Source of the DNA: Synechococcales cyanobacterium CNB
GTDB taxonomy: Bacteria > Planctomycetota > Phycisphaerae > Phycisphaerales > UBA1924
Assembly: GCA_030263455.1 (NCBI GenBank)
Contig: SZOZ01000005.1
Span: 186,001 to 250,000, forward strand
Length of the DNA stretch: 64,000 nt
Direction of reading: 5' to 3'
Shown: positions 2-14,822 of the stretch, piece by piece
Position numbering within the stretch: the stretch's first letter is position 1
Layout: every line of letters starts with the position of its first letter
Program-made: the position numbers and the translations under genes
Notes under the pieces: generated by a model
Told to the model about the DNA's origin: nothing
Database searches by the model: none
What the model saw: the letters and a program-made list of their open reading frames with translations, nothing else

Positions 2-1678
2 AAGGAACGGAGACTCGTAGATACGGCCCGCCGTGTCCAGAGCGCCTTGACGTTGATAACTGAGGCGGCGCGCATGGTAGACGCCGGCCTGCCCACTCGC
101 GCGGAGGAACTTCGCACGCTGCAGAACACCGTGACATCCAATGGCGGATTGCTAGCCGGCTGTGCCGACGCGTTTTTGACCGTACTCGCGAAGAGCCACC
201 CTGAGGCGTCAGTTGTCGCACTCACCGCGGCTTCCAAGGAAGCACGCGTGGCTGCACAGAAAGCAGTGAACGCCGCGAAGGAAGAACACGCAAACTTCAG
301 ACAGCTTCGCGATCACTCAGTCAACCTGGCGCAACAGCTTCGCGACATCGCAGCCCAGATCCTCAAGGACAGTCCTCTATCCGAAGAGTGTCCCCTGTGC
401 CATACTCAGTTCGCCCCGGGAGAATTGGCCAAGCACATGCAGCTTGGCGTGGATCAGCACGTCGAAGCTCGCGGACAGGCTTTGCTGTCGCAGTTGCGGC
501 AGCGCGAAGAGGCACTGCGCGAAGCCATGGTCGTTGAGAATGCGTCAGCGTGGCTCGGGAAGTTCTGCGAGCGGGCAGCGATCGATAGAGAGGTCACTGT
601 CGTGGCCGCACTGTCGAAGATCAATGGAGCACGGCAGGCGCTTGTCGAGGCACAGCAACGACTTGAGGCATTGAATAAGGAACTTGAAGCTCTGGAATCC
701 CAAGGCCTACCCGTTGCCAGGTTGGATCAACTCCTCGCCGGCTTGCGCGAGTCTGGCTACGCTCTGCCCGATTGGACGAAGCAAAATATCGACCAAGTGC
801 GCGCCACGATTGAGCGGGAACAAGCGAACACCGCCAAAGCGCTGGAGAAGGAACGGGCGAATGCCGACACACTTCGGCGAGCACTTGAGGCAAGCTTGGG
901 ATTGCGGGAATCCAATGCAGAGGGCCCGAAGGTAGCCATATCCCAACTCAAGGAGCGCCGCGCGGTTGCAGACAGCCTTCGGGAGAAACTCGGCACTCTG
1001 CTCAAGTCGTTTCCCTGGCCGGGAGACAGACCGCTTTCTGAGCTGGTAGTTGAGACCGATTCAATCCGCAAAGTCGCAGCGGAGTTCCAAGCCGCGGTTG
1101 GCAGGGAGCAGCAGGCGAAGACCATTGTCGCGGACTCCACAAAGCGGAGGGAGCAACTCGCTAAACAACTGGCGGAAGTGAGCCTCCGCATTGAGCGGTT
1201 TGTCAAAGCTGACAAGGCTCTGGAGGTCATCCAGCAGAAGCACTCTCTGACCGGCGCGATGGAAGCGGCGCTCAAGCGGAACCGTGCGCAGATCGAGGCG
1301 ATCTTTGGCCGTATCCACGCGCCCGCAGAGTTCTCAGGACTTGGGGGGCGTCTTTGCACGCTCGTCAGAAAGAATGGAGCAGCCGAGGCTACGCTGAGTG
1401 AGATCAGCACCGGTCAACGCGCCGCCTTTGCCCTGTCGATTTTCTTAGCTCAGAATGCACAGCTTCGAGTGGCCCCGCCTGTGGTTTTGATCGACGACCC
1501 GATCGCCCATGTCGATGATCTGAATGCGCTGTCGTTTCTGGACTACTTGCGCGAGCTTGCTTTAGTGGGCGGTAGACAGATCCTGTTTGCAACTGCAAGC
1601 GAGAAGCTCGCCGCGCTCTTCGAGCGCAAGTTCGATTTCTTAGGAGATGACTTCCGCCGCCATGAACTTCGCCGGTAA
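2..1678 (+). CDS. Rad50/SMC-like ATPase, C-terminal part (partial)
   Basis: The frame is open from base 2, so the gene starts outside the window and the ATP-binding Walker A half is not visible. About 115 codons in, a CPLC motif (from base 389) sits between long heptad-like, Glu/Arg/Gln-rich stretches, as in the zinc hook of Rad50-type coiled-coil ATPases. Near the end an ABC-type signature (STGQRAAFALS, about base 1410) is followed by a Walker B-like segment (VVLIDDP, about base 1485) and a D-loop-like HVDD. These order and spacing features match the C-terminal half of AAA_23/SMC-family DNA-end or structure-processing ATPases. In accessory regions such proteins are often nuclease or defence partners, but the partner would lie upstream and cannot be seen. 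The family assignment is fairly sure; the precise role is unknown. Confidence 0.75.
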   Translation, partial: KERRLVDTARRVQSALTLITEAARMVDAGLPTRAEELRTLQNTVTSNGGLLAGCADAFLTVLAKSHPEASVVALTAASKEARVAAQKAVNAAKEEHANFRQLRDHSVNLAQQLRDIAAQILKDSPLSEECPLCHTQFAPGELAKHMQLGVDQHVEARGQALLSQLRQREEALREAMVVENASAWLGKFCERAAIDREVTVVAALSKINGARQALVEAQQRLEALNKELEALESQGLPVARLDQLLAGLRESGYALPDWTKQNIDQVRATIEREQANTAKALEKERANADTLRRALEASLGLRESNAEGPKVAISQLKERRAVADSLREKLGTLLKSFPWPGDRPLSELVVETDSIRKVAAEFQAAVGREQQAKTIVADSTKRREQLAKQLAEVSLRIERFVKADKALEVIQQKHSLTGAMEAALKRNRAQIEAIFGRIHAPAEFSGLGGRLCTLVRKNGAAEATLSEISTGQRAAFALSIFLAQNAQLRVAPPVVLIDDPIAHVDDLNALSFLDYLRELALVGGRQILFATASEKLAALFERKFDFLGDDFRRHELRR

Positions 1679-2127
1679 GCTTCGCCGTTGTCTTGATGAC
1701 ACGACACTGTGCTCACCACTCGAAAGGCTGATGCCGCGCCAGCGGTGCAGTCATCACACCAGCTTCACCAGCAGCCGGTACATAACAACCAGTTCCATCC
1801 ATGGTATTGCGTCCACTTCCAGAGATGCGTCACAACTCGCGTCAGGCAGTGGGTGCAGACCCACATGACGCTCCTGACCATGAGCACGCCAGCACCGGCC
1901 GCGTGCAATCACTGTGACCTTTCATCGGCGTTGACGTAGCCCGCACGCGATTCTGCTTGTCCTGGCTTTCATCCGCGGCGCTCCCGGCCGTCACCGCTTC
2001 GCTTCCCGCCTCCGAGTCTTGCACGCCTCACGCCGTCGCCGCAGGGCGCCCTGCGGGTGCGCTCCGTCATTCGGCCTGCTCCGCTGACGCGGGACTCTCC
2101 GGCGTGCCGCCGGCCTTCGCGCCGCTT
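1679..2127. other. non-coding stretch after the ATPase gene
   Basis: About 450 bases lie between the ATPase stop and the hairpin before the ArdC-like gene. No reading frame here has a plausible protein sequence. I see no tRNA, insertion-sequence end or clear terminator. It changes from mixed composition to very GC-rich DNA from about base 1970, near where the ArdC leader begins. Confidence 0.5.
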
Positions 2128-2200
2128 GCTCCTTGTCACCCCCGACGTGGTCCCTCGTGCCTGGCGAAGGGACCGCACGTCGCGGGGCCCGACAAGGAGC
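2128..2200 (+). promoter_or_regulatory. long imperfect hairpin enclosing the ArdC ribosome-binding site
   Basis: GCTCCTTGTC at 2128-2137 is the exact reverse complement of GACAAGGAGC at 2191-2200. Further inward, CCCCGACGTG/GTCCCT pairs with AGGGAC/CGCACGTCGCGGGG with small mismatches, leaving a loop of about a dozen bases. The right arm contains AAGGAG (2194-2199), the Shine-Dalgarno sequence for the ATG at 2207. In RNA, this stem would bury the ribosome site. It could act as a translational switch or protein-binding site, or be an inverted repeat used at the DNA level. The pairing is seen directly; regulation is inferred. Confidence 0.7.
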
Positions 2201-2206
2201 AGAACC

Positions 2207-3028
2207 ATGAAAGCCGAACATGCAAAGAAGATCGCCGACCAGGCCCTCGAACAACTCGCCGACGCGCTCGCGCACGGCAAGAGCGAAGCGCTCACCCGCT
2301 ACCTCGCCATGCTGGCCAAGTTCCACAAGTACAGCTTCGGGAACGTGCTGATGATCCTCTCGCAGCGTCCCGATGCCACGCACGTCGCCGGCTTCCACAC
2401 CTGGCGGCAGATGGGCCGCTTCGTCAAGAAGGGCGAGAAGGGCATCGTCATCATCGCCCCGATGCTCATCCGCAAGCGCGACGAGCAGGCCGACGACGGC
2501 GCCGAAGAATCAAAGCCGGTGCTGCGTTTCCGCGGTGTCTACGTCTTCGACGTGTCGCAGACCGACGGCGAGCCGCTGCCCGAGCCGGCGCGCGTCAACG
2601 GCGACCCGCGCCACCACACCGACCGCCTCAAGGCGCTCGTCGGCGAGCGCGGCATCACGCTTGACCACATCGACGTGCCCCACGATGCCCTCGGCGTCTC
2701 TCGCGGCGGCCGCATCAGCATCCGCCCCGACCTGGAGCCGGCCGTCGAGTTCTCCGTCCTCGCGCATGAGCTGGCCCACGAGCTGCTCCACCGGGGCGAG
2801 GACCGCCCGGCCAGCAAAACCGTCCGCGAGACCGAGGCCGAGGCGGTCGCCTTCGTCGTCTGCCAGGCGATCGGCCTGGAGACCGGCACCGCCGCCAGCG
2901 ACTACATCCAGCTCTTCGACGGCAAGGCCGAAACGCTGGCCGCCTCCCTCGACCGCATCCAGAAGACCGCCGCCGAGATCATCGCGGCCGTCCACGGCGC
3001 CGCCGCTGAGCCGGCGGAAGCCGCCTGA
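2207..3028 (+). CDS. ArdC-like antirestriction protein (ssDNA-binding domain plus zincin)
   Basis: 273 aa from the ATG at 2207, chosen because AAGGAG lies 7 nt upstream and the family-like sequence begins there. The N-terminal half contains a YSFGNVLMIL segment and GFHTWRQMGRFVKKGEKG, typical of the ArdC N-terminal domain (DUF1738) that binds single-stranded DNA. The C-terminal half carries a zincin-type HELAH motif inside EFSVLAHELAHELLH and a downstream ETEAEAVAFVV helix that would supply the third metal ligand. ArdC proteins of conjugative plasmids protect incoming DNA from restriction. Finding it next to a type III restriction set and an ATPase remnant suggests a mobile or defence-related region. 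The catalytic residues look intact. Confidence 0.85.
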   Translation: MKAEHAKKIADQALEQLADALAHGKSEALTRYLAMLAKFHKYSFGNVLMILSQRPDATHVAGFHTWRQMGRFVKKGEKGIVIIAPMLIRKRDEQADDGAEESKPVLRFRGVYVFDVSQTDGEPLPEPARVNGDPRHHTDRLKALVGERGITLDHIDVPHDALGVSRGGRISIRPDLEPAVEFSVLAHELAHELLHRGEDRPASKTVRETEAEAVAFVVCQAIGLETGTAASDYIQLFDGKAETLAASLDRIQKTAAEIIAAVHGAAAEPAEAA

Positions 3029-3083
3029 CCCGGCGTCCGCACCCCGGCGGGTGGCCGCCGGGGTGCTCTGCGGGATTGGCTCA

Positions 3084-3114
3084 GGGAGTCGCGCAATAAC
3101 CCAAATCCTGACCC
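3084..3114 (+). repeat. imperfect 30-bp direct repeat, copy 1
   Basis: The segment begins GGGAGTCGCGC and continues with AACCCAA and TCC.GACCC; a near copy lies at 3183-3212, 99 bp further on. A weaker GGGAGAGTCGCGGG echo occurs near 3350. Two good copies are too few for a CRISPR array. They could be iteron-like or regulator-binding sites in the ArdC-helicase intergenic region. Confidence 0.55.
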
Positions 3115-3182
3115 GAATCCGACCGAGGCACGCACCGGAAATGCCGTCTTTTCAGGGAGTTACGGCACGGCCATTTGGGTCG

Positions 3183-3212
3183 GGGAGTCGCGCCAAAACC
3201 CAATTCCGACCC
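3183..3212 (+). repeat. imperfect 30-bp direct repeat, copy 2
   Basis: Matches 3084-3114 at about 25 of 30 positions, sharing GGGAGTCGCGC and AACCCAA.TCC.GACCC. It lies in the 447-bp non-coding stretch 3029-3475, whose only other recognisable content is the promoter/operator at its right end. Confidence 0.55.
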
Positions 3213-3419
3213 AAAACCTCACCTCGATCGACGGCTGCCGATTGCGGAACTGAGTCAGCCGACCCGCAATCCCTCCCGCAATCCGACCCGCGTCCGGCAC
3301 CGGCAAGTGCCCGGATTCGCAGTGTCTTCTCGATGTTCCGATTGCGTGGGAGAGTCGCGGGACGCATCCGGCCAGGCCGTCGCACCGGGTCGCCCGGCCA
3401 CGGCCAGCCAACTCCGGCG

Positions 3420-3448
3420 TTGACATGTCTATCATGCTCCGATAGACA
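3420..3448 (+). promoter_or_regulatory. promoter with overlapping palindromic operator before the helicase operon
   Basis: A perfect -35 box TTGACA (3420-3425) is followed after exactly 17 bp by TAGACA (3443-3448), a weak -10. A perfect inverted repeat, TGTCTATC (3426-3433), 7-bp spacer, GATAGACA (3441-3448), fills the spacer and the -10. A dimeric repressor bound here would block RNA polymerase. The next gene, starting 27 bp downstream at 3476, encodes a winged-helix protein, so autorepression is the simplest reading. Confidence 0.7.
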
Positions 3449-3475
3449 GGTAGCGGCGGTCAGGAGGCCCCGCGG

Positions 3476-3739
3476 ATGCTGTACGAACGATCCCTCGAAA
3501 TTGAACGCCGACTGGAAGCCGTGCTCGGCATGATCCGCAAGGGCAGCTATTCAACGCCGCGCATGGCCGAGGAACTCGGCGTGTCCATCCCGACCGTCTC
3601 GCGCGACGTGACCGCGCTTCGGCAACGTGGCCACGACATCCGGGCCGAGCGGGGACCCAACGGATGGCGGTACGTGCTTGGGCGTGCAAACCACAATCCC
3701 CGCGCCCACGGCGACTCGACGGAGGCGCGCGGCTCATGA
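3476..3739 (+). CDS. small winged-helix (HTH_11/DeoR-type) transcriptional regulator
   Basis: 87 aa from the ATG at 3476, with AGGAGG about 9 nt upstream. Residues about 8-60 form a compact helix-turn-helix unit (GSYSTPRMAEELGVSIPTV) followed by a wing-like RAERGPNGWRYV strand, as in the HTH_11 domain of DeoR- and WYL-type regulators. No WYL or ligand-binding domain follows, so it is a minimal DNA-binding protein. The last codons overlap the helicase start by ATGA (3736-3739), implying translational coupling. It probably binds the palindrome at 3426-3448 and controls the downstream cluster. Confidence 0.8.
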   Translation: MLYERSLEIERRLEAVLGMIRKGSYSTPRMAEELGVSIPTVSRDVTALRQRGHDIRAERGPNGWRYVLGRANHNPRAHGDSTEARGS

Positions 3740-6609
3740 CGGACTATCACGCGAAATACATCGCCCACGAGCTGACACGGCGCTGCGCGTCCGACAGCGT
3801 CGAGAAGCTCACGGCCGTGCTGTCCGACGCGCAGGTGGACCTGAACCCGCACCAGATCGAGGCGGCGCTCTTCGCGTTCCGCAACCCGCTCTCCCGTGGA
3901 GCGATCCTTGCCGACGAGGTCGGTCTCGGCAAGACCATCGAGGCCGGCCTGCTCATCGCGCAGAAGTGGGCCGAACAACGTCGGCGCTTGCTCGTCGTCG
4001 CACCGGCCAACCTCCGCAAGCAGTGGAGCCAGGAGCTTGCTGACAAGTTCTTCCTGCCGTCCGTGATTCTGGAGGCTCGAACGTTCAATGAGTGTGTCCG
4101 CGCCGGGAACCTCAATCCCTTTCGGCAGGATGCCGTCATCGTGTGCTCCTACCAGTTCGCACGAAAGATGGAGCCCTACGTTCGGCAGACGCCTTGGGAT
4201 CTGGTCGTGATCGACGAAGCCCATCGGCTCCGCAACGTGTACAAACCGACCAACAAGATTGCCAACGCCATCAAGCAGTCCGTCGCGCCGTTCCGAAAGG
4301 TGCTGCTCACCGCGACGCCGCTGCAAAACTCGCTGTTGGAACTGTACGGCCTGGTCAGCATCATCGACGAGTACTCCTTCGGAGATATCAAGACGTACCG
4401 ATCGCGCTTCACTCGGCTTGGAAACGACGAGGACTTCAGCGACCTGAAGGAGCGGCTCAAGCCGATTTGCAAGCGCACGCTCCGAAAGCAGGTTCTGGAG
4501 TACGTCAGGTACACCAACCGGCACGCCATCGTGCAGGAGTTCGTGCCCACGCCCGAGGAGCAACGGCTCTATGACCTCGTGACGGAGTACCTCCAGCAGC
4601 CGACGCTCTACGCGCTGCCGGCCAGTCAGCGCTCGCTCATGACGCTCATCTTGCGCAAACTGCTCGCCTCTTCGACCTACGCGATCTCCGACACGCTGAA
4701 CGGTCTCGCGGTCAAGCTGGAGACGGCAGCGCGCGAGGCGGAGGCGATTGATGCGCCGCCTGAGCAACTCATTGACGATTGGGAGGAAATCGACGAGCTC
4801 GCAGACGAGTGGGAGCCAGACGAAGACGAAGGTGAACCGTCGGCGAAACCGGAATACACCCCCGAGCAGCTCGCTGACATGCGCAAGGAGATGGCAAAGC
4901 TCCGAGAGTTTCATGCGCTGGCCAAGTCGATCGCGAAGAACTCCAAGGGGGAGGTGCTGCTCACGGCGCTTCGCCGTGGCTTCGCCGCCGCCGCCAAAGC
5001 CCGCGAAGGCGAATCGGCGATCCAGCAGAAGGCGCTGATCTTCACCGAATCCCGCCGCACCCAGGAATACCTCTTCCGCCTGCTTCAACAGACCGAGTTC
5101 GCCGGAAAGGTCATGGTGTTCAACGGCACCAACAGCGACCCGCAATCGAAGGACATCTACCACCGCTGGCTGGAGCGCCACAAGGGAACCGACCGCGTTT
5201 CCGGCTCGCCGGGGGCGGACATGCGCGCCGCCCTGGTCGAATACTTCCGCGACGAAGCGTCAATCATGATTGCCACCGAAGCGGCCGCCGAGGGCATCAA
5301 CCTCCAGTTCTGCAACCTCGTCGTCAACTACGACCTCCCCTGGAACCCCCAGCGCATCGAGCAGCGCATCGGCCGGTGCCACCGCTACGGCCAGAAGTTC
5401 GACGTGGTCGTCGTCAACTTCCTGAATAAAGCCAACGCCGCCGACCAGCGCGTCTACCAACTGCTCGACGAGAAGTTCCGCCTCTTCAACGGCGTGTTCG
5501 GGGCGAGCGACGAAGTGCTCGGCGCCGTCGAGTCCGGCGTGGACTTCGAGAAACGCATCGCCTCGATCTACCAGAAGTGCCGCACGCCGCAGCAAATCGA
5601 GTTCGAGTTCGACCAACTTCAACAGGAACTTGACGCGGAAATCGCCGCCGGGCAGCAGGATGCCCGCGAGAAACTGCTCGACAACTTTGACCAGGAGGTC
5701 GTCGAGAAGGTCCGCATCCAGTCCACCGGGCTCCTGGACCGTTTCAACGAACGGCTCTGGCTGCTCACTCGCCACCTGCTCAACGGCTTTGCGAAGTTCG
5801 ACGAGAACGAATACAGCTTCTACCTGACGCAGAACCCGTTCGCCGGTGAAGCGATCCACCCCGGCCCCTATCGGCTCGGCAAGCACGTCGAAGACGCCAA
5901 CACCTACCGCGTGGGGCATCCGCTCGCCCAACGAATCCTTGCGCAGGCGAAAGCCCTCTCTGTCGGGCCGGCGGAGGTGACCTTCAACTACACCGAGAGC
6001 GGAAAGAACATCGCCATCCTGGAGCCGCTGGTCGGCGCTGGCGGCTGGCTTTCGTGCTTTCGCCTGACGGTCCAGTCCCTGGATGTGGAAGAGCACGTCA
6101 TGCTCGCCGGAGTGACGGACGCCGGCGGGATCCTGGACGACGCCCAGTGCCGGCGGTTTTTCGATCTGCTCGGTGCCGCGAACGGCCCGATCACGGTCCC
6201 GACTGATGTTCACGCGACACTTTCAGAGGCGTTCAGGCGCCGCCAGAACGAGCTGCTTGCCACGCTGGCAACCAAGAGCGGTCAGTGGTTCGACACGGAG
6301 ATGGACAAGCTCGACCGGTGGGCTGAGGACCGGCGTACGGCGCTCAAGGCCGAACTTGACGAACTGGACGCCAACATCAAGGAGACCAAGAAAGCCGCCC
6401 GGCTCGCCCCCAACCTGCCGGAAAAGCTCGAACTTCAGCGCAAGCTGCGCACCCTCGAAACCAAGCGCGATGAGGCATGGCGCGCTTACGACGCCGCCAG
6501 CCGCGACGTGGATCGGCAGAAGGACGCTCTGCTCGATGAGATCGGCCGTCAATTGGAGCAGAAAACCGAATGCACCGAGTTGTTCACCCTTCGCTGGAGG
6601 GTCGCATGA
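3736..6609 (+). CDS. SNF2-family DEAD/DEAH-box helicase
   Basis: 957 aa from the ATG at 3736, which overlaps the regulator stop as ATGA. Motif I is GLGKT within ADEVGLGKTIEAGL, motif II is DEAH in VVIDEAHRL, motif III is LLTATPLQN, and the C-terminal RecA-like lobe has ATEAAAEGINLQ and QRIEQRIGRCHRYGQ (motif VI). An acidic insertion follows the first lobe (around base 4790-4850). A long charged, coiled C-terminal region (about base 6240-6590) follows the motor. This is the RapA/SNF2-like class found in bacterial defence loci, where it acts as an ATP-driven translocase on double-stranded DNA. It resembles DrmD in general type, but no DISARM partner genes are present. All motor motifs look intact. 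Confidence 0.9.
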   Translation: MTDYHAKYIAHELTRRCASDSVEKLTAVLSDAQVDLNPHQIEAALFAFRNPLSRGAILADEVGLGKTIEAGLLIAQKWAEQRRRLLVVAPANLRKQWSQELADKFFLPSVILEARTFNECVRAGNLNPFRQDAVIVCSYQFARKMEPYVRQTPWDLVVIDEAHRLRNVYKPTNKIANAIKQSVAPFRKVLLTATPLQNSLLELYGLVSIIDEYSFGDIKTYRSRFTRLGNDEDFSDLKERLKPICKRTLRKQVLEYVRYTNRHAIVQEFVPTPEEQRLYDLVTEYLQQPTLYALPASQRSLMTLILRKLLASSTYAISDTLNGLAVKLETAAREAEAIDAPPEQLIDDWEEIDELADEWEPDEDEGEPSAKPEYTPEQLADMRKEMAKLREFHALAKSIAKNSKGEVLLTALRRGFAAAAKAREGESAIQQKALIFTESRRTQEYLFRLLQQTEFAGKVMVFNGTNSDPQSKDIYHRWLERHKGTDRVSGSPGADMRAALVEYFRDEASIMIATEAAAEGINLQFCNLVVNYDLPWNPQRIEQRIGRCHRYGQKFDVVVVNFLNKANAADQRVYQLLDEKFRLFNGVFGASDEVLGAVESGVDFEKRIASIYQKCRTPQQIEFEFDQLQQELDAEIAAGQQDAREKLLDNFDQEVVEKVRIQSTGLLDRFNERLWLLTRHLLNGFAKFDENEYSFYLTQNPFAGEAIHPGPYRLGKHVEDANTYRVGHPLAQRILAQAKALSVGPAEVTFNYTESGKNIAILEPLVGAGGWLSCFRLTVQSLDVEEHVMLAGVTDAGGILDDAQCRRFFDLLGAANGPITVPTDVHATLSEAFRRRQNELLATLATKSGQWFDTEMDKLDRWAEDRRTALKAELDELDANIKETKKAARLAPNLPEKLELQRKLRTLETKRDEAWRAYDAASRDVDRQKDALLDEIGRQLEQKTECTELFTLRWRVA

Positions 6610-8508: not shown

Positions 8509-8610
8509 ATGACCGAACCCGAAAAACTTGACCTCCGCTCGCACGACATCGCCGCCGACAGGATGGCGGAGTTGCTGCGCCTGTTCCCGGAGATCCGCAC
8601 CGAGGGACGT
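8509..8610 (+). pseudogene. N-terminal remnant of type III Mod, out of frame with the rest
   Basis: An ATG at 8509, 33 nt after the DUF4411 stop, encodes MTEPEKLDLRSHDIAADR and then AELLRLFPEIRTEG, which closely resembles the usual N-terminus of type III Mod proteins. After about base 8607 this frame turns to non-family sequence, while family sequence (DVGKERYG) resumes in another frame. The usual stretch of roughly 20 residues between these two parts is missing. A small deletion that is not a multiple of three explains both observations. Confidence 0.7.
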
Positions 8611-8629
8611 GGGCAAGGAGCGCTACGGA

Positions 8630-10345
8630 ATGAACTGGCCGGGCAAGGCCGAGTGCTTCAGGACGATCCAAACGCCCAGCGTCGCCACGCTCCGCCCCTG
8701 CCCCGAGGAGAGCGTCAACTTCGACACAACGGAGAACCTCATCGTCGAGGGCGACAACCTGGAGGTGCTCAAGCTCTTGCAGAAGTCGTATCTCGGCAAG
8801 GTCAAGATGATCTACATCGACCCGCCGTACAACACCGGCAACGACTTCATCTACCCGGACGACTACGCCGAGTCGCTGCGGACCTACCTTGAGTACACCG
8901 GCCAGGTCGATGCGGAAGGTCGCAGGTTCGGCACGAACACCGACGCCGACGGACGCTTCCATTCCAAGTGGATGAACATGATGTACCCGCGGCTGTACTT
9001 GGCAAGGAACTTGCTGCGCGACGATGGCGTGATCTTCATCACGATCGACGATACAGAGGCTGACAATCTGAAGAAGATTGCCAACGAGGTCTTTGGGGAG
9101 GAGAACTTCGTTGCAAATGTCGTGTGGCAGAAAAAATACGCCGTGTCTAACGACGATCCCGGTATTGCACCTATGCACGACCATGTTCTCGTCTTCCGGC
9201 GCTCCGAGCACTTTGAGCGCAACCTGCTACCGAGAACAGAAAAACAAACGCAGCGATATACGAATCCCGACAACGATCCTCGCGGCCCCTGGAGTTCAGA
9301 CAACTACATCAGCAACAAGTCACGCCAAGAGCGTCCAACGCTGTGGTACGCAATTCGTCATCCGAAGACGGGTGAGGAAGTGTGGCCGGAAGAAAGCGCT
9401 GTATGGCGCTACTCGCGTGAGAGACATCAACAGATCGAGGCGGAGGGACGGCTTTACTGGGGGCCGGATCAAGGCTACAAACGCCCGCGATTGAAGCGGT
9501 TTCTTTCAGAGATACAGGATGGTGTGGTGCCATCCACTTGGTGGACCTTTCAAGAGGTTGGTCACAACGACGAAGGGCAAAAGGAAACGGCAGAGCTGAT
9601 CGGCCCCAAGATCTTCAGCACACCCAAGCCGGTGCGCCTCATCCGGCGGATGATCGAACTTGGCTCAGGCAAGAACGACATTGTCATGGATTTCTTTGCT
9701 GGCTCTGGCGCCACCGCCCATGCCGTTCTCAACGCCAATCAGGAGGACGGTGGCACAAGACGATTTATTCTCGTGCAATTGCCGGAAGCATGCGACCCAG
9801 ACAGTCCAGCAGCAAAGGCCGGTTTCAAGACCATCGCCGACATCTGCAAAGAGCGCGTCCGCCGCGTCATCAAGAAGTTGAACGACGAGGAGGCCGACAA
9901 GCTCGACATGAGCGGCGGCTCGACTCCGGATCGCGGCTTTCGCGTCTACAAGCTCGCCGAATCGAACTTCACCGAGTGGGATGCTCGCGTCGAGCACGAG
10001 GCCGGGGCGCTGGAGAAGCAGCTTGAGCTCCATGTCGATCACATCCGCGACGGCCGTTCCGCCGACGACATCCTCTACGAACTCCTGCTCAAGAGCGGCT
10101 TCCCGCTGACGACCCCCGTCGAGAAGAAGACATTGGCGGGTAAGACCGTCTACTCCGTCGCCGGCGGCGTGCTGATGATCTGCCTCGAGCGGGAACTGAC
10201 GCTGGAGCTGATCCGCGCCATCGCCGACGCCAAGCCGGAGCGTGTCGTCCTGCTCGATGCCGGGTTCGCCAAGAACGACCAGCTCAAGGCCAATGCCGTG
10301 CAGACGTTCCGCACCAAGGGCGTCACCAGCTTCAAGACCGTGTGA
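8630..10345 (+). CDS. mod: type III DNA methyltransferase (Mod), N-terminally truncated
   Basis: 571 aa if it starts at the ATG at 8630, which has AAGGAG (8614-8619) upstream; the frame itself is open further 5'. The catalytic motif DPPYNTG (residues about 64-70) precedes FAGSG (about residue 355), the order of beta-class N6-adenine methyltransferases. RPCPEESVNFDTTENL and EGDNLEVLKLLQKSY are typical type III Mod sequence. The protein should recognise and methylate an asymmetric site and guide Res. The normal first 40 or so residues lie in another frame at 8509-8610. Whether it still assembles with Res is therefore open. Its stop overlaps the next gene as GTGA. Confidence 0.85.
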   Translation: MNWPGKAECFRTIQTPSVATLRPCPEESVNFDTTENLIVEGDNLEVLKLLQKSYLGKVKMIYIDPPYNTGNDFIYPDDYAESLRTYLEYTGQVDAEGRRFGTNTDADGRFHSKWMNMMYPRLYLARNLLRDDGVIFITIDDTEADNLKKIANEVFGEENFVANVVWQKKYAVSNDDPGIAPMHDHVLVFRRSEHFERNLLPRTEKQTQRYTNPDNDPRGPWSSDNYISNKSRQERPTLWYAIRHPKTGEEVWPEESAVWRYSRERHQQIEAEGRLYWGPDQGYKRPRLKRFLSEIQDGVVPSTWWTFQEVGHNDEGQKETAELIGPKIFSTPKPVRLIRRMIELGSGKNDIVMDFFAGSGATAHAVLNANQEDGGTRRFILVQLPEACDPDSPAAKAGFKTIADICKERVRRVIKKLNDEEADKLDMSGGSTPDRGFRVYKLAESNFTEWDARVEHEAGALEKQLELHVDHIRDGRSADDILYELLLKSGFPLTTPVEKKTLAGKTVYSVAGGVLMICLERELTLELIRAIADAKPERVVLLDAGFAKNDQLKANAVQTFRTKGVTSFKTV

Positions 10346-11829
10346 GGGAGATGAGCAACGCCATGCCGAGAGCAGGAACAACCAGCCGCCCCTTCGGAAC
10401 CGCCGAGGGAATCTCATTGGAGTTCAAGCGAGCAACCGACAGGTTGCCGTCGAACCTCTTTGAGACGATCTGCGCGTTTCTCAACATGGACGGCGGCCTG
10501 ATCCTTCTCGGCGTCGAGGATGACGGCGAGGTGTCGGGGGTTGACCCGACGGCCGTCGAACGATTGAAGGCCGACATCGCCAATCTCTCCAACAACCCGC
10601 AGAAGCTCGACCCGCCCTATCTCCTGTTTCCCCAGGAAGAGCAGGTGGCCGGCAAATGGGTCATCAAGGTGCAGGTTCCGGCCAGTTCGCAGGTGCATGA
10701 GACGACGGGCGCCGTATTCCTCCGCAGCGAGGACGGCGATTACCGCGTCAAAGGCGTGAATCAGCTCGCTGGCCTTCTCAATCGCAAGCTCGGTATTTTC
10801 ACCGAGCAGAAGGTGTTTCCCCACCTGGGAATAGCGGACTTCGATCCCGCCCTGTTCGAGAAGGCCAGGCGGCTGATGCTGACCCGCCAGCCGAAGCACC
10901 CCTGGGCCGGTCTACCGCCGGAGGAGTTGCTGAAAGTCGCGGGCTTCGTCCGCAAAGACCCCGACACCGGCAAGCCCGCCTTCAACCTCGCAGCAGGCTT
11001 GATGTTCGGGTTGGACACGACGATTCAGGAGCTTGTGCCGGGCTACAAATTCGATGCGCTGCTGAGGCGCAAGGACACGGAGCGTTACGACGACCGGCTC
11101 ATCGTCCGCACGAACCTGATCGACGCCTTCGACCAGCTCATGGGGTTCGTCGAGAAGCACCTCAACGATCCCTTCTATCAGGAGGGCGTGACGAGCATCA
11201 GCCTCCGCACCGTCATCTTCCGCGAGTTGGTGGCCAACATCATCGCCCACCGCGAATACACCAGCGCCGCACCGGCCACGATGATCATCTACGCTGACCG
11301 CGTGGAGTTCAAAAACCCCAATGTGCCGCACTACTTCGGCCGCATCGACCCGAACCGCTTCACGCCGTATCCGAAGAATCCGACCATCTGCAAGTTCATG
11401 CTCCAGTTGGGGCGGTACGACGAGCTCGGCTCCGGCGTCCGGCGGGTCAATCACTACCTGCCGCTCTACGCGCCCGGCGCGGGCAAGCCGGTCTTCGAGG
11501 ACGGGGAGATGTTCACCGTCATCGTGCCGATTGCGACCGCGGCCCGAAAGACGACCCCCGATGTCGCCCCCGAAGTGACCCCCGAAGTGACCCCCGAAGT
11601 CAGGAAGATGCTGACGGTCCTCAAAGGGGACATGGGGCGTCGGGAGATTCAGGCGAAGCTGGGGCTGACGGACGAGAAGCACTTCCGGGAGTTCTACCAG
11701 CAGCCCGCCATCGCGCAGGGCTTGATCGAAATGACCATTCCAGACAAGCCCAAGAGCCGACTGCAGAAGTACCGCCTGACCGAGAAAGGCCGTGGATTCC
11801 TTGCGCAACATCGGGGGGCCACGCCGTGA
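10342..11829 (+). CDS. AlbA_2 (Schlafen-type) / RecG-like HATPase_c_4 protein inside the RM operon
   Basis: 495 aa if read from the GTG overlapping the Mod stop; ATGs at 10351 and 10369 are alternatives. The N-terminal region (EGISLEFKRA, MDGGLILLGVEDDGEVSGV) is an AlbA_2/divergent AAA-4 domain. The middle (RELVANIIAHREY, DRVEFKNPN and LGSGVRR) matches the HATPase_c_4 module. A DVAPEVTPEVTPEVRK linker of repeated PEV units leads to a C-terminal winged-helix-like region (GRREIQAKLGLTDEKHFRE). Such proteins are usually putative transcriptional regulators or DNA-binding ATPases. Its overlap with both mod and res (GTGA on each side) makes it an integral member of this restriction operon. Confidence 0.85.
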   Translation: MREMSNAMPRAGTTSRPFGTAEGISLEFKRATDRLPSNLFETICAFLNMDGGLILLGVEDDGEVSGVDPTAVERLKADIANLSNNPQKLDPPYLLFPQEEQVAGKWVIKVQVPASSQVHETTGAVFLRSEDGDYRVKGVNQLAGLLNRKLGIFTEQKVFPHLGIADFDPALFEKARRLMLTRQPKHPWAGLPPEELLKVAGFVRKDPDTGKPAFNLAAGLMFGLDTTIQELVPGYKFDALLRRKDTERYDDRLIVRTNLIDAFDQLMGFVEKHLNDPFYQEGVTSISLRTVIFRELVANIIAHREYTSAAPATMIIYADRVEFKNPNVPHYFGRIDPNRFTPYPKNPTICKFMLQLGRYDELGSGVRRVNHYLPLYAPGAGKPVFEDGEMFTVIVPIATAARKTTPDVAPEVTPEVTPEVRKMLTVLKGDMGRREIQAKLGLTDEKHFREFYQQPAIAQGLIEMTIPDKPKSRLQKYRLTEKGRGFLAQHRGATP

Positions 11830-14822
11830 AACTCCAGTTCGACGCCAACCAGCCGTACCAGCTCGACGCGATCGACGCTGTCACGTACTTGTTCGACGGT
11901 CAGCCGCAGGGCGCGCCGGAGTACTCGGTCATCCAAATGGGCGACTGGGGCGAGATGTTCGCCGGTCAGGAGCGGACCGAGCTTGGCGTCGGCAATCAGA
12001 TGCTCCTTTCGGCCGACACGCTGTTGGCCAACACCCGTGCCGTCCAGGCTCGCAATGACATCGAGATCGTTGACCCGGCTGCGCCGCTGGAGGCGTGGGA
12101 TCTGTTCGACGCCCCGGCCAACGCCGCCCGGACCTGTCCGCACTTTTCGGTCGAAATGGAGACCGGTACGGGCAAGACGTACGTCTACCTGCGCACGATC
12201 TTCGAGCTATCGCGCCGCTACGGCTTTCAGAAGTTCATCATCGTCGTGCCGAGCGTCGCCATCCGCGAGGGGGTGCTCAAGAACATCGAGATCACGGCAG
12301 AACACTTCCGGGCGCTCTACAACAACCTCCCCTTCGAGCACTTCGTCTACGACGCCAAGAAAGTCAATCGCCTGCGGCAGTTCGCCGTCAGCAACACGCT
12401 CCAGATTCTCGTCATCAACATCGACGCCTTCCGCAAGAACTTCACCGGCACCGAGGCTGAGCAGAAGAGCAACGTCATCTACAAGGAGAGCGACCGACTC
12501 TCCGGCCGGCAACCCATCGAGTTCGTGCAAGCGGCGCGACCGATCGTCATCATTGACGAACCGCAGAGCGTGGACTCCACCGAAAGGGCGCAGGAGGCCA
12601 TCCGGGCGCTGAATCCCCTCTGTACGCTGCGCTATTCAGCCACGCATCGCAACCCCTACAACCTCGTCTATCGCCTGGACCCCGTGCGGGCGTTCGAGCT
12701 TCGACTCGTAAAGCAGATCGTGGTGGGCAGCGCCGTCGCCGACGGCGGCGCCAATGACGCCTTCGTGCGCGTTGAAAAGATCGACTACAAGACCGGGATC
12801 AAGGCGAAACTTCGCATCCACGTTCAGACACCGGACGGCCCGAAGGAGAAATCAGTCACGGTGAAGAACGGAGCCGACCTGTTCACGCTTTCCAACGAGC
12901 GGGCCGCCTACCGGCAGGGCTTCGAGATTGCCGAGATCAATGCCGAGCCGGAAAACGAGTACATCCGCTTCACCAGCGGCCGCGTCATGCGGCTCGGTGA
13001 GGAAATCGGCGGCCTCCGCGACGACGTGTGGCAGGCGCAGATCAAGCACACGGTCAAGAAGCACCTGGAGAAGGAGCTTCAACTGCTCGGCCGCGGCGTA
13101 AAGGTGCTGAGCCTGTTCTTCATCGACCGCGTGGCCAACTACCGCGACTACAGCGGCGGTGGGCAGCCGGTGAAGGGTAAGTTCGCCGAAGCGTTCGAGG
13201 CTGCGCTTGCCGAGTTTGCCAAGGACGACCGGTACAAGGACCTTCCACTCTTCAAGCACCCGATCGAGAAGCTGCATGACGGTTACTTCGCCGCCGACAA
13301 GCCGAGGAAGGGGCAGACGCAGCCGGTCTGGAAAGATACACGCGGCGACACGCAGGCCGACGACGAGGTTTACAACCTTATCATGAAGGAGAAGGAGCGG
13401 CTGCTCGCCGAAGATGAGCCGCTGCGGTTCATCTTCAGCCACTCGGCCCTGCGCGAGGGTTGGGACAATCCGAACGTGTTTCAGATTTGCACGCTGAACG
13501 AGACGCGCTCCGCGCTCAAGAAGCGCCAGGAGATCGGCCGCGGGCTGCGCTTGCCCGTCAACCAGCACGGGCAGCGGGTCTTCGACGACTCGATCAACAA
13601 GCTCTTTGTCATGGCCAACGAGAGTTACGAGGAGTTCGCCCGGGCGCTCCAGACCGAATACGAGGAGGACTGCGGCGTGACATTTGGCAAGGTGCCGATC
13701 ACGGCCTTTGCCAAGCTGGTTCAGGTGGTTGACGACGAAGAGAGGCCCATCGGGCGCGAGGCGGCCGAGGCGATCAAGAAGGCGCTTGTGGACCAGAAGA
13801 TGATCGACGCCGAGGGGCGCTTGCAGCCGGCGTTCGACCCGAAGCGGCCGGACTTCAAGATCGAACTTCCCGAGCCGCATAAAGATCTCGCCCCGGCCGT
13901 CGTGGACCTGCTCGCCAGCTACCAGATCGAGCGTCACATCCGCAAGGAAAAACAGGAGGGGCCGAACCGGCTGCGCAAGGAGGTCCAACTCAGCCCCGAG
14001 TTCATGGCCCTGTGGGATCGGATCAAGCCCAAGACCGTCTACCGCGTCGAGTTCCAGACCGAGGAACTGGTCCGGGTATCGGTCGCCGGGATCAAGAAGA
14101 TGCCCAAGATCGAGGCCGCGAAGATTCGCGTGACGGCCGGCCAGGTGGGCGTCGTCCGCGGCGGGGTCACGGCCATCGCTATCAGCGCCGCCGAGGAGCA
14201 GGTCACGTTCACCCATCGGCCCGTGCCCGACGTACTCGCGTACCTCCAAAACGAGACGGAGCTGACCCGCTCGACACTTGTGCGGATTCTCAAGGAGTCA
14301 GGCAGGCTCGCCGAGTTCTTCGTGGACCCGCAGCGCTTCATGGACGCTGTGGCCGCGATCATCAAGCACGAGCTGCATCGCCTGCTCGTGGACGGCATCA
14401 AGTACGAGAAGATCGGGGGCCAAGCGCCGGACGCCGAGTGGGAGATGCTGCTCTTCAAGAACGAAGAGCTGATCAACTATCTGACCGCGCTCCAGGTCAA
14501 CCACTCCGTCTACGAGTACGTCGTCTATGACTCTGAAATCGAACGGGAATTCGCCCGCAAGCTGGACCAGCGCGACGACATTAAGCTGTTCGTCAAGCTG
14601 CCCAACTGGTTCGAGATCGACACGCCTGTCGGCAAGTACAACCCGGACTGGGCCATCGTGAAGCACGACGGGGAAGCGCTCTATCTGGTCCGCGAGACGA
14701 AGGGGACCAAGGATTTCCTGAAGCTGCGGACCAGCGAGGCGGACAAGGTGCGCTGCGGGCAAAAGCACTTCGAGACGCTCGGCGTGCCGTTCAACGTGGT
14801 CGTTTCGGCGGACGAGGTCTAG
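11826..14822 (+). CDS. res: type III restriction endonuclease subunit (Res)
   Basis: 998 aa from the GTG at 11826, overlapping the upstream stop as GTGA. The helicase half shows Walker A ETGTGKT, motif II DEPQ (IVIIDEPQSVD), motif III YSATHR and late motifs including FIFSHSALREGWDNPNV and RQEIGRGLRLP. The C-terminal end carries a PD-(D/E)XK nuclease core: NPDWAIV followed by VRETKG. Length and domain order are as expected for Res. It acts with Mod, using ATP to signal between two inverted unmethylated sites and cut the DNA. All catalytic motifs look intact. Confidence 0.93.
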   Translation: MKLQFDANQPYQLDAIDAVTYLFDGQPQGAPEYSVIQMGDWGEMFAGQERTELGVGNQMLLSADTLLANTRAVQARNDIEIVDPAAPLEAWDLFDAPANAARTCPHFSVEMETGTGKTYVYLRTIFELSRRYGFQKFIIVVPSVAIREGVLKNIEITAEHFRALYNNLPFEHFVYDAKKVNRLRQFAVSNTLQILVINIDAFRKNFTGTEAEQKSNVIYKESDRLSGRQPIEFVQAARPIVIIDEPQSVDSTERAQEAIRALNPLCTLRYSATHRNPYNLVYRLDPVRAFELRLVKQIVVGSAVADGGANDAFVRVEKIDYKTGIKAKLRIHVQTPDGPKEKSVTVKNGADLFTLSNERAAYRQGFEIAEINAEPENEYIRFTSGRVMRLGEEIGGLRDDVWQAQIKHTVKKHLEKELQLLGRGVKVLSLFFIDRVANYRDYSGGGQPVKGKFAEAFEAALAEFAKDDRYKDLPLFKHPIEKLHDGYFAADKPRKGQTQPVWKDTRGDTQADDEVYNLIMKEKERLLAEDEPLRFIFSHSALREGWDNPNVFQICTLNETRSALKKRQEIGRGLRLPVNQHGQRVFDDSINKLFVMANESYEEFARALQTEYEEDCGVTFGKVPITAFAKLVQVVDDEERPIGREAAEAIKKALVDQKMIDAEGRLQPAFDPKRPDFKIELPEPHKDLAPAVVDLLASYQIERHIRKEKQEGPNRLRKEVQLSPEFMALWDRIKPKTVYRVEFQTEELVRVSVAGIKKMPKIEAAKIRVTAGQVGVVRGGVTAIAISAAEEQVTFTHRPVPDVLAYLQNETELTRSTLVRILKESGRLAEFFVDPQRFMDAVAAIIKHELHRLLVDGIKYEKIGGQAPDAEWEMLLFKNEELINYLTALQVNHSVYEYVVYDSEIEREFARKLDQRDDIKLFVKLPNWFEIDTPVGKYNPDWAIVKHDGEALYLVRETKGTKDFLKLRTSEADKVRCGQKHFETLGVPFNVVVSADEV

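Follow-up and report, generated by a model that had tools for sequence, protein, structure and literature searches.

Mobile elements need anti-restriction proteins when they enter a cell and have to shut them off afterwards, and the known solutions for timing such proteins to entry are single-stranded DNA (ssDNA) promoters and escape from a repressor. Other forms of control are exerted by the cis-antisense RNAs of plasmids, such as FinP/traJ, CopA/repA and IS10 RNA-OUT, and by hairpins in the 5' UTR that sequester the Shine-Dalgarno sequence (SD), as in RNA thermometers and autoregulated leaders. The YUNR U-turn has been reported as ubiquitous in antisense systems that recognise their target loop to loop (PMC4485353), leading regions that encode anti-defence functions show a prevalence of Frpo promoters (PMC11541004), and the ardC gene of R388 is required in the recipient and not in the donor (PMC7213743). 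Here we report a conserved structured leader in front of an ardC gene, the antisense signature of which points to a possible third route.

The ardC gene and the hairpin over its ribosome-binding site

The window, i.e., the whole stretch of 64,000 nt that was analysed, contains ardC at 2207..3028 on the (+) strand. Its product of 273 aa (2207-3025) combines an ArdC N-terminal domain with a metallopeptidase domain of the M78-like type, and the translation contains HELAHE. An earlier note on this DNA had named the gene ArdC, which is borne out by a match to the N-terminal domain PF08401 (E 5.2e-12); the match to Peptidase_M78 lies slightly below its cut-off. Upstream of the gene is a long hairpin, P2 (2126..2202), with stem boundaries at 2126/2127 and 2201/2202. 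The stem-loop that the same note had placed at 2128-2206 is real, and the placement misses just the outermost pair(s) of the stem. RNA folding of 2120-2215 yields the stable stem expected there (-55.0 kcal/mol, z -5.78), with none of 200 dinucleotide shuffles as good; the P2 fold of 2126-2202 has about -54 kcal/mol, and the complementary strand of 2126-2202, folded as RNA, -53.3 kcal/mol (z -6.60). Folded as DNA, 2120-2215 gives -29.3 (z -4.45) for the ardC mRNA-sense strand and -31.2 (z -4.67) for the complementary strand. Both strands of P2 pair, and its assignment to the (-) strand follows the wobble pattern, which favours the strand complementary to the ardC mRNA. The SD (AAGGAG, 2194..2199, (+) strand, located by sequence reading) lies within the 3' arm of P2, 7 nt ahead of the ArdC ATG (2207-2209), a spacing that had been given correctly. 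The loop motif of P2 (2165..2168, assigned to (-)) reads CGAA on the top strand and UUCG on the bottom strand. Only one copy of the P2/ardC DNA was detected in the genome of the window.

ArdC protein searches returned 29 loci in named genomes. Matches were obtained in 20 of 101 genomes (the window's own and its relatives), in 24/294 genomes of the window's phylum and 38/248 of its class, in 32/297 genomes in the phylum of an Acidobacteria record (L018), and in 129/249 genomes in the order of G387, where several matches per genome were common (7 in G594, 10 in G967); no ArdC relative was found in a protein search of viral contigs. The upstream set comprised 116 unique ardC upstreams with an assignable start after duplicates had been merged, and 45 loci were left out that had no N-terminal match, no ATG, or a start too far away. 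One locus counted under Planctomycetota (L003) has the upstream DNA of L034, which belongs to a genome of the window's own family.

The hairpin score used for these upstreams is strand-symmetric, with a cut of at least 50, and the highest score among shuffles was 57.5. Where the ArdC was at least 60% identical to that of the window, 36 of 38 upstreams reached the cut and carried the loop motif, the remaining two scoring 47 and 49, and 22 of the 38 reached the highest shuffle score. At 50-60% identity the cut was reached by 18 of 43 upstreams (15 with the loop motif), at 40-50% by 6 of 21 (2 with the loop motif) and below 40% by none of 14; among control ORF upstreams of the same loci, 1/40 reached a score of 50 and 10/40 a score of 43. 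Because the score drops with falling ArdC identity and only one control reached the cut, the P2-type hairpin is a property of one ardC clade, not of every ardC.

Scores of the 41 non-redundant copies, which come from both Planctomycetota and Acidobacteriota, ranged from 47 to 81.5 (median 64), compared with a mean of 37.8 and a maximum of 57.5 for 410 shuffles. The SD lies wholly in P2 in 37 of these copies and partly in 4; for several copies of Acidobacteriota it had at first been placed beyond the stem, which longer windows did not confirm. Of 49 main-clade copies, 47 have a predicted SD pairing probability of 0.69 or more, at energies of about -35 to -57 kcal/mol, and pairing is weak in L102 (0.16) and L115 (0.59); SD pairing is frequent in control upstreams too (mean 0.60).

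The arms of P2 have been rewritten among the copies (GGTCCC, GGCCCC, GGTTCC, GTTTCC, TTTTCT and others), each version being matched by its partner arm. Over the eight positions of the inner helix, 279 of 328 cells in the 41 copies are Watson-Crick pairs, compared with a mean of 154 and a maximum of 188 in 500 trials with shuffled partners; the row of L153 was counted in this test although mis-registered, and was placed by hand for the loop-motif count. In 40 of 41 homologues, as found with a locator that required the GA, the 3' edge of the loop reads [CT]GA[AG] on the top strand, which corresponds to YUCR (of the YUNR U-turn form) on the bottom strand; in a plain alignment, the loop GA is invariant in 32/32 copies. 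MAFFT and RNAalifold recovered only 5 pairs from 32 diverse copies because the arms are too divergent for sequence alignment, and the copies were therefore compared hairpin by hairpin. P2 is a conserved, covarying hairpin and not a chance structure.

The leader block and its genomic surroundings

In an alignment of 300 nt from 28 upstreams, ranging from Planctomycetota to Acidobacteriota, the region between about -250 and the ATG is conserved. In the window, the whole conserved leader occupies about 250 nt (1955..2206) and is assigned to (-), the strand with the apparently selected fold. The earlier note described the hairpin before ardC, but not a second, upstream domain. This domain, P1 (2021..2079, assigned to (-)), is a hairpin arm with outer GCA/TGC pairs and was placed by alignment and subclade consensus fold. 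P2 and P1 together make up a structured and evolutionarily conserved element of about 250 nt, tied to one ardC clade in Planctomycetota and Acidobacteriota; several copies reside on elements that encode a TrwC (MOBF) relaxase.

On the bottom strand, P1 reads GCA..CGGGCGUGACAG..CUGGCGCG..UGC in two subclades, and relatives contain the motif GUGAC..GGCGYG inside P1 on this strand, where a U.G pair is conserved in 8/9. The consensus fold of the upstream domain is better on the bottom strand in 6/6 subclades, both by energy and by z, and the single-sequence energies of the upstream part favour the same strand. A covariance model of P1 (R1), built from two subclades with 9 training sequences, was run at E<0.01 on 99 sources including the window; it matched the 9 training sequences and the leaders of L153, L018 and L152, and in addition an unrelated position in L054, some 700 nt farther upstream. 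The model does not recover the window's own P1. Its scan for copies without ardC gave one marginal match in 121 genomes, a result obtained with a narrow model that is blind to the window's own copy.

The top strand of the leader (-260..-85, 34 main-clade loci) contains on average A 0.11, C 0.39 and T 0.21, and its AT skew is reversed relative to ardC (A 0.22, T 0.16). Its richness in C would make Rho-dependent attenuation conceivable. A protein-coding leader was rejected on inspection by eye, the indels of the alignment not being multiples of three. Rfam release 15 gave no match above the gathering threshold in the window or in 10 homologous loci, and below the threshold only two matches at chance level in 1700-2700. 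Among the matches listed, whose titles and abstract starts cover little of the subscription literature, neither an ArdC hairpin or leader RNA nor a leading-region antisense RNA was described, nor was the structure among the RNA motifs of Planctomycetes/Acidobacteria.

Other ardC genes are preceded by other leaders. A different Acidobacteriota subclade (L118, L119, L127, L167-L175, L257, L263, L265, L277-L281, L283-L285, L288-L294) has a conserved leader with CGCCTTCGCCAGGTGGCG or a near form, followed by hairpins like CGGCATGTACATGCCG and CGCGTTTCAACGCGG, with the SD downstream of the hairpins (by eye), and further leader types occur in L224/L225/L227/L228 and in L226/L230/L232. In family f105, which belongs to the class of the window, L161-L165 and L188-L191 (ArdC identity about 40%) share a hairpin of the type GTGCTCCCGCGATGC..AACATCCGGGAGCGTGGC, seen by eye upstream of the SD; in L163 and L190 this hairpin directly follows a sigma70-like TTGAC..CATA site.

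Just past the ardC stop of the window, a GC-rich inverted repeat (CACCCCGGCGG / CCGCCGGGGTG, 3040-3065, by eye) without a T-run after it is possibly the transcription end of a single-gene ardC unit. Defence cargo near ardC (3736-6609 and 8528-14822) comprises a DrmD-like SNF2 helicase (E 4.9e-203) and a type III methyltransferase with a restriction enzyme, with a Schlafen/Fic-C protein between, and an LmuB-like protein is encoded at the left edge of the window (47-1678).

Genes around the ardC of L306/L307 and L308/L309 encode a TrwC relaxase, a ParB-type protein, ParA, RepA_C and DNA methylases; L306 also has a TraG/TrwB-like coupling protein, and L308 has its homologue and a serine recombinase. 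On the window's own element (L310), TrwC and RepA lie upstream, beyond the window. Of 22 loci searched besides the window, 6 had TrwC (L014, L306, L308, L310, L312, L313), and the relaxase family PF03432 was found in 0/12 genomes. The distance between trwC and ardC varies widely, and the leader block stays adjacent to ardC in the aligned copies. In L014 (1248-4284), trwC lies on the minus strand (1248-3773) and ardC starts at 4284 on the plus strand. The two neighbours diverge from a gap of about 510 bp, which would have to accommodate both the leader block and any oriT.

The strand selected to fold

If the fold of the ardC mRNA were selected, changes from G-C to A-U should pass through G.U on the mRNA strand, and the opposite was observed. 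The P2 interior of the 41 non-redundant sequences contains, on the mRNA strand, 41 A.C and 4 G.T mismatches (358:252 in shuffles); by sequence, A.C exceeds G.T in 25, the reverse holds for none, and 16 are ties. The mismatch cells are not independent and were therefore also counted by kind (12 vs 2). A control with the RNA strand of 9 tRNAs had the expected opposite trend (A.C 3, G.T 8). Pairs 1-7 of the inner helix have C.A in 21 cells, 7 of them at the loop-closing pair, and G.T in none, while its edge pair 8 has T.G in 5 and C.A in 1. Columns paired in the consensus of both strands (10 groups) contain 22 A.C and 9 G.T in P2, and 27 A.C and 11 G.T upstream. The ratio is weaker (97:38; shuffles 258:188) with untrimmed helix ends in 77 copies, a set that was picked by eye, so that its pairing percentages are biased upward; the strand ratio should be free of this bias, and the count of 36 of 38 hairpins given above is independent of this picking. 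For the upstream hairpins alone the mismatch test is near neutral (52:33 vs 151:111 in shuffles). Since an A.C mismatch on the mRNA strand is a G.U wobble on the opposite one, these substitutions suggest that the selected fold is quite probably that of the bottom strand, complementary to the ardC mRNA.

Part of the folding measures favour neither strand, or the top strand. The folding z-scores of P2 are equal between strands (p 0.61), with energies slightly in favour of the bottom strand (p 0.03), and the consensus z of P2 is lower on the top strand in 5/6 subclades. The apical CGC/GTG pair is a G.U on top (16 cells in the 77 copies), and CTTCGG, which on the top strand reads as a stable RNA tetraloop, occurs upstream 18 times on top vs once on the bottom strand. 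The consensus z, the apical G.U and the CTTCGG loops would fit a cis translational switch, in which the leader of the ardC mRNA folds into P2, hides the SD and is opened by a ligand, a protein (possibly ArdC), temperature or coupled transcription, and so would the high pairing probability of the SD and its full enclosure in the stem of most copies. The earlier note had envisaged such a switch, and the covarying, SD-covering hairpin that it requires exists. The SD is paired as in SD-occluding mRNA hairpins, but the compensatory changes do not favour G.U on the mRNA strand, as they should there; they pass mostly via A.C. Because the wobble polarity points to the bottom strand, a plain mRNA switch is disfavoured, and with an upstream domain that folds better on the bottom strand and the weak SD pairing of L102 and L115 also against it, we consider this explanation unlikely.

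An ssDNA promoter or signal, likewise suggested earlier, would require that the bottom strand folds while single-stranded in transfer and drives ardC. The bottom strand is indeed both the ardC template and the apparently folded strand, the elements encode TrwC, and the prevalence of Frpo promoters in leading regions with anti-defence genes lends the idea some plausibility. In R388, the nic sequence is found on the + strand, which leads away from the relaxase gene. The gene taken here as the ardC of R388, annotated as a zincin-like metallopeptidase, is on the - strand and points toward nic, the orientation that fits such a promoter. In the present elements, however, ardC and the trwC gene point away from each other in 6/6 loci with TrwC, so that under an R388-like polarity the entering strand would be the ardC coding strand and a Frpo-type promoter unworkable. 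The relaxase gene is typically last to enter (PMC11541004), and coding-strand genes have to await second-strand synthesis, as described for the leading gene ygfA of F (PMC9849209). A scan for Frpo-type -35/-10 boxes, limited to the sigma70 type, found no sigma70-like site in 1679-2500 and no enrichment on the + strand at -160..-50 of the homologues (mean z -0.26). The folding strand agrees with an ssDNA promoter, but gene orientation, if the polarity is that of R388, and promoter content do not, and we regard it as improbable.

Improbable as well is an independent noncoding RNA on the bottom strand (e.g., trans-acting or protein-binding) that merely abuts ardC. Such an RNA would explain why P1, with its own GUGAC/GGCGYG motif, and the multi-helix consensus exceed the needs of simple antisense pairing; however, the block keeps its place beside ardC at very different trwC distances, and copies without ardC were not seen, in a weak test with a narrow model that gave the one marginal match. 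A double-stranded DNA operator or a cruciform bound by a regulator, suggested by the inverted symmetry and by HTH genes near some copies, is very improbable, since the arms diverge while pairing persists, unlike a fixed recognition sequence, and since a cruciform predicts no strand bias. Integron attC sites have a folded bottom strand and RYYYAAC / GTTRRRY end boxes; this candidate was rejected after inspection by eye of 32 printed hairpins, in which the boxes were not seen.

A candidate antisense RNA and its known counterparts

The reading that we tentatively prefer, and hold to be quite possible, is a cis-antisense RNA from the bottom strand that spans the ribosome-binding site of ardC, is missing when the element arrives in a new host and represses the gene later. 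Several traits of antisense RNAs are found at the locus. The fold appears to be selected opposite the target mRNA, for which the excess of A.C over G.T is supportive and not decisive; the hairpin overlaps the ribosome-binding site of its target, wholly or partly, in every one of the 41 copies; and the bottom-strand YUCR loop, counted with the GA-requiring locator, has the YUNR form of loop-loop systems. The region 1679-2500 contains no sigma70-like promoter and no intrinsic terminator on either strand, bottom-strand promoters are not enriched inside the ardC start of the 41 homologues (mean z -0.38), and the ardC start has no consistent synonymous conservation beyond codons 1-10.

In the proposed mechanism, the bottom strand would be transcribed as a cis-antisense RNA, the U-turn loop of P2 would recognise the ardC leader, and the RNA would pair through the ribosome-binding site and block translation. 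A newly entered element would come without the antisense RNA, and ArdC would be made at once and could counter restriction; in the established host, the antisense RNA would build up and shut off ardC. The lack of antisense RNA in a naive recipient should result in an early burst of ArdC, which fits the need for R388 ardC in the recipient (PMC7213743).

More doubtful is the wider proposal of a previously undescribed family of structured antisense RNAs of about 250 nt that would time anti-restriction on MOBF elements of Planctomycetota and Acidobacteriota. If the proposal is true, these elements would achieve zygotic induction through an RNA instead of an ssDNA promoter. The leader can also serve as a marker by which elements with ardC are recognised in these two phyla, which have received little study.

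Compared with known systems, the locus shares a paired SD within a stem with SD-sequestering 5' UTR hairpins, but its compensatory evolution runs mostly through wobbles of the complementary strand. As with Frpo/ssi of F and ColIb-P9, an anti-restriction gene of a mobile element is directly preceded by a stable hairpin; in contrast to them, no -35/-10 signature of the sigma70 type was found, and the orientation of the gene to the relaxase would, under an R388-like polarity, be opposite to that required for Frpo. The ardC of R388 belongs to the same ArdC family (named as such in PMC7213743) and is likewise on a MOBF element, but points toward oriT. With FinP/traJ, CopA/repA, IS10 RNA-OUT and pMV158 RNAII (for the last, PMC4485353), the locus has in common a hairpin opposite a leader, an overlap with the ribosome-binding site and a YUNR loop. 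Known here from sequence alone, the candidate RNA differs from these plasmid antisense RNAs in its putative anti-restriction target, its stem of about 30 pairs and its second conserved domain.
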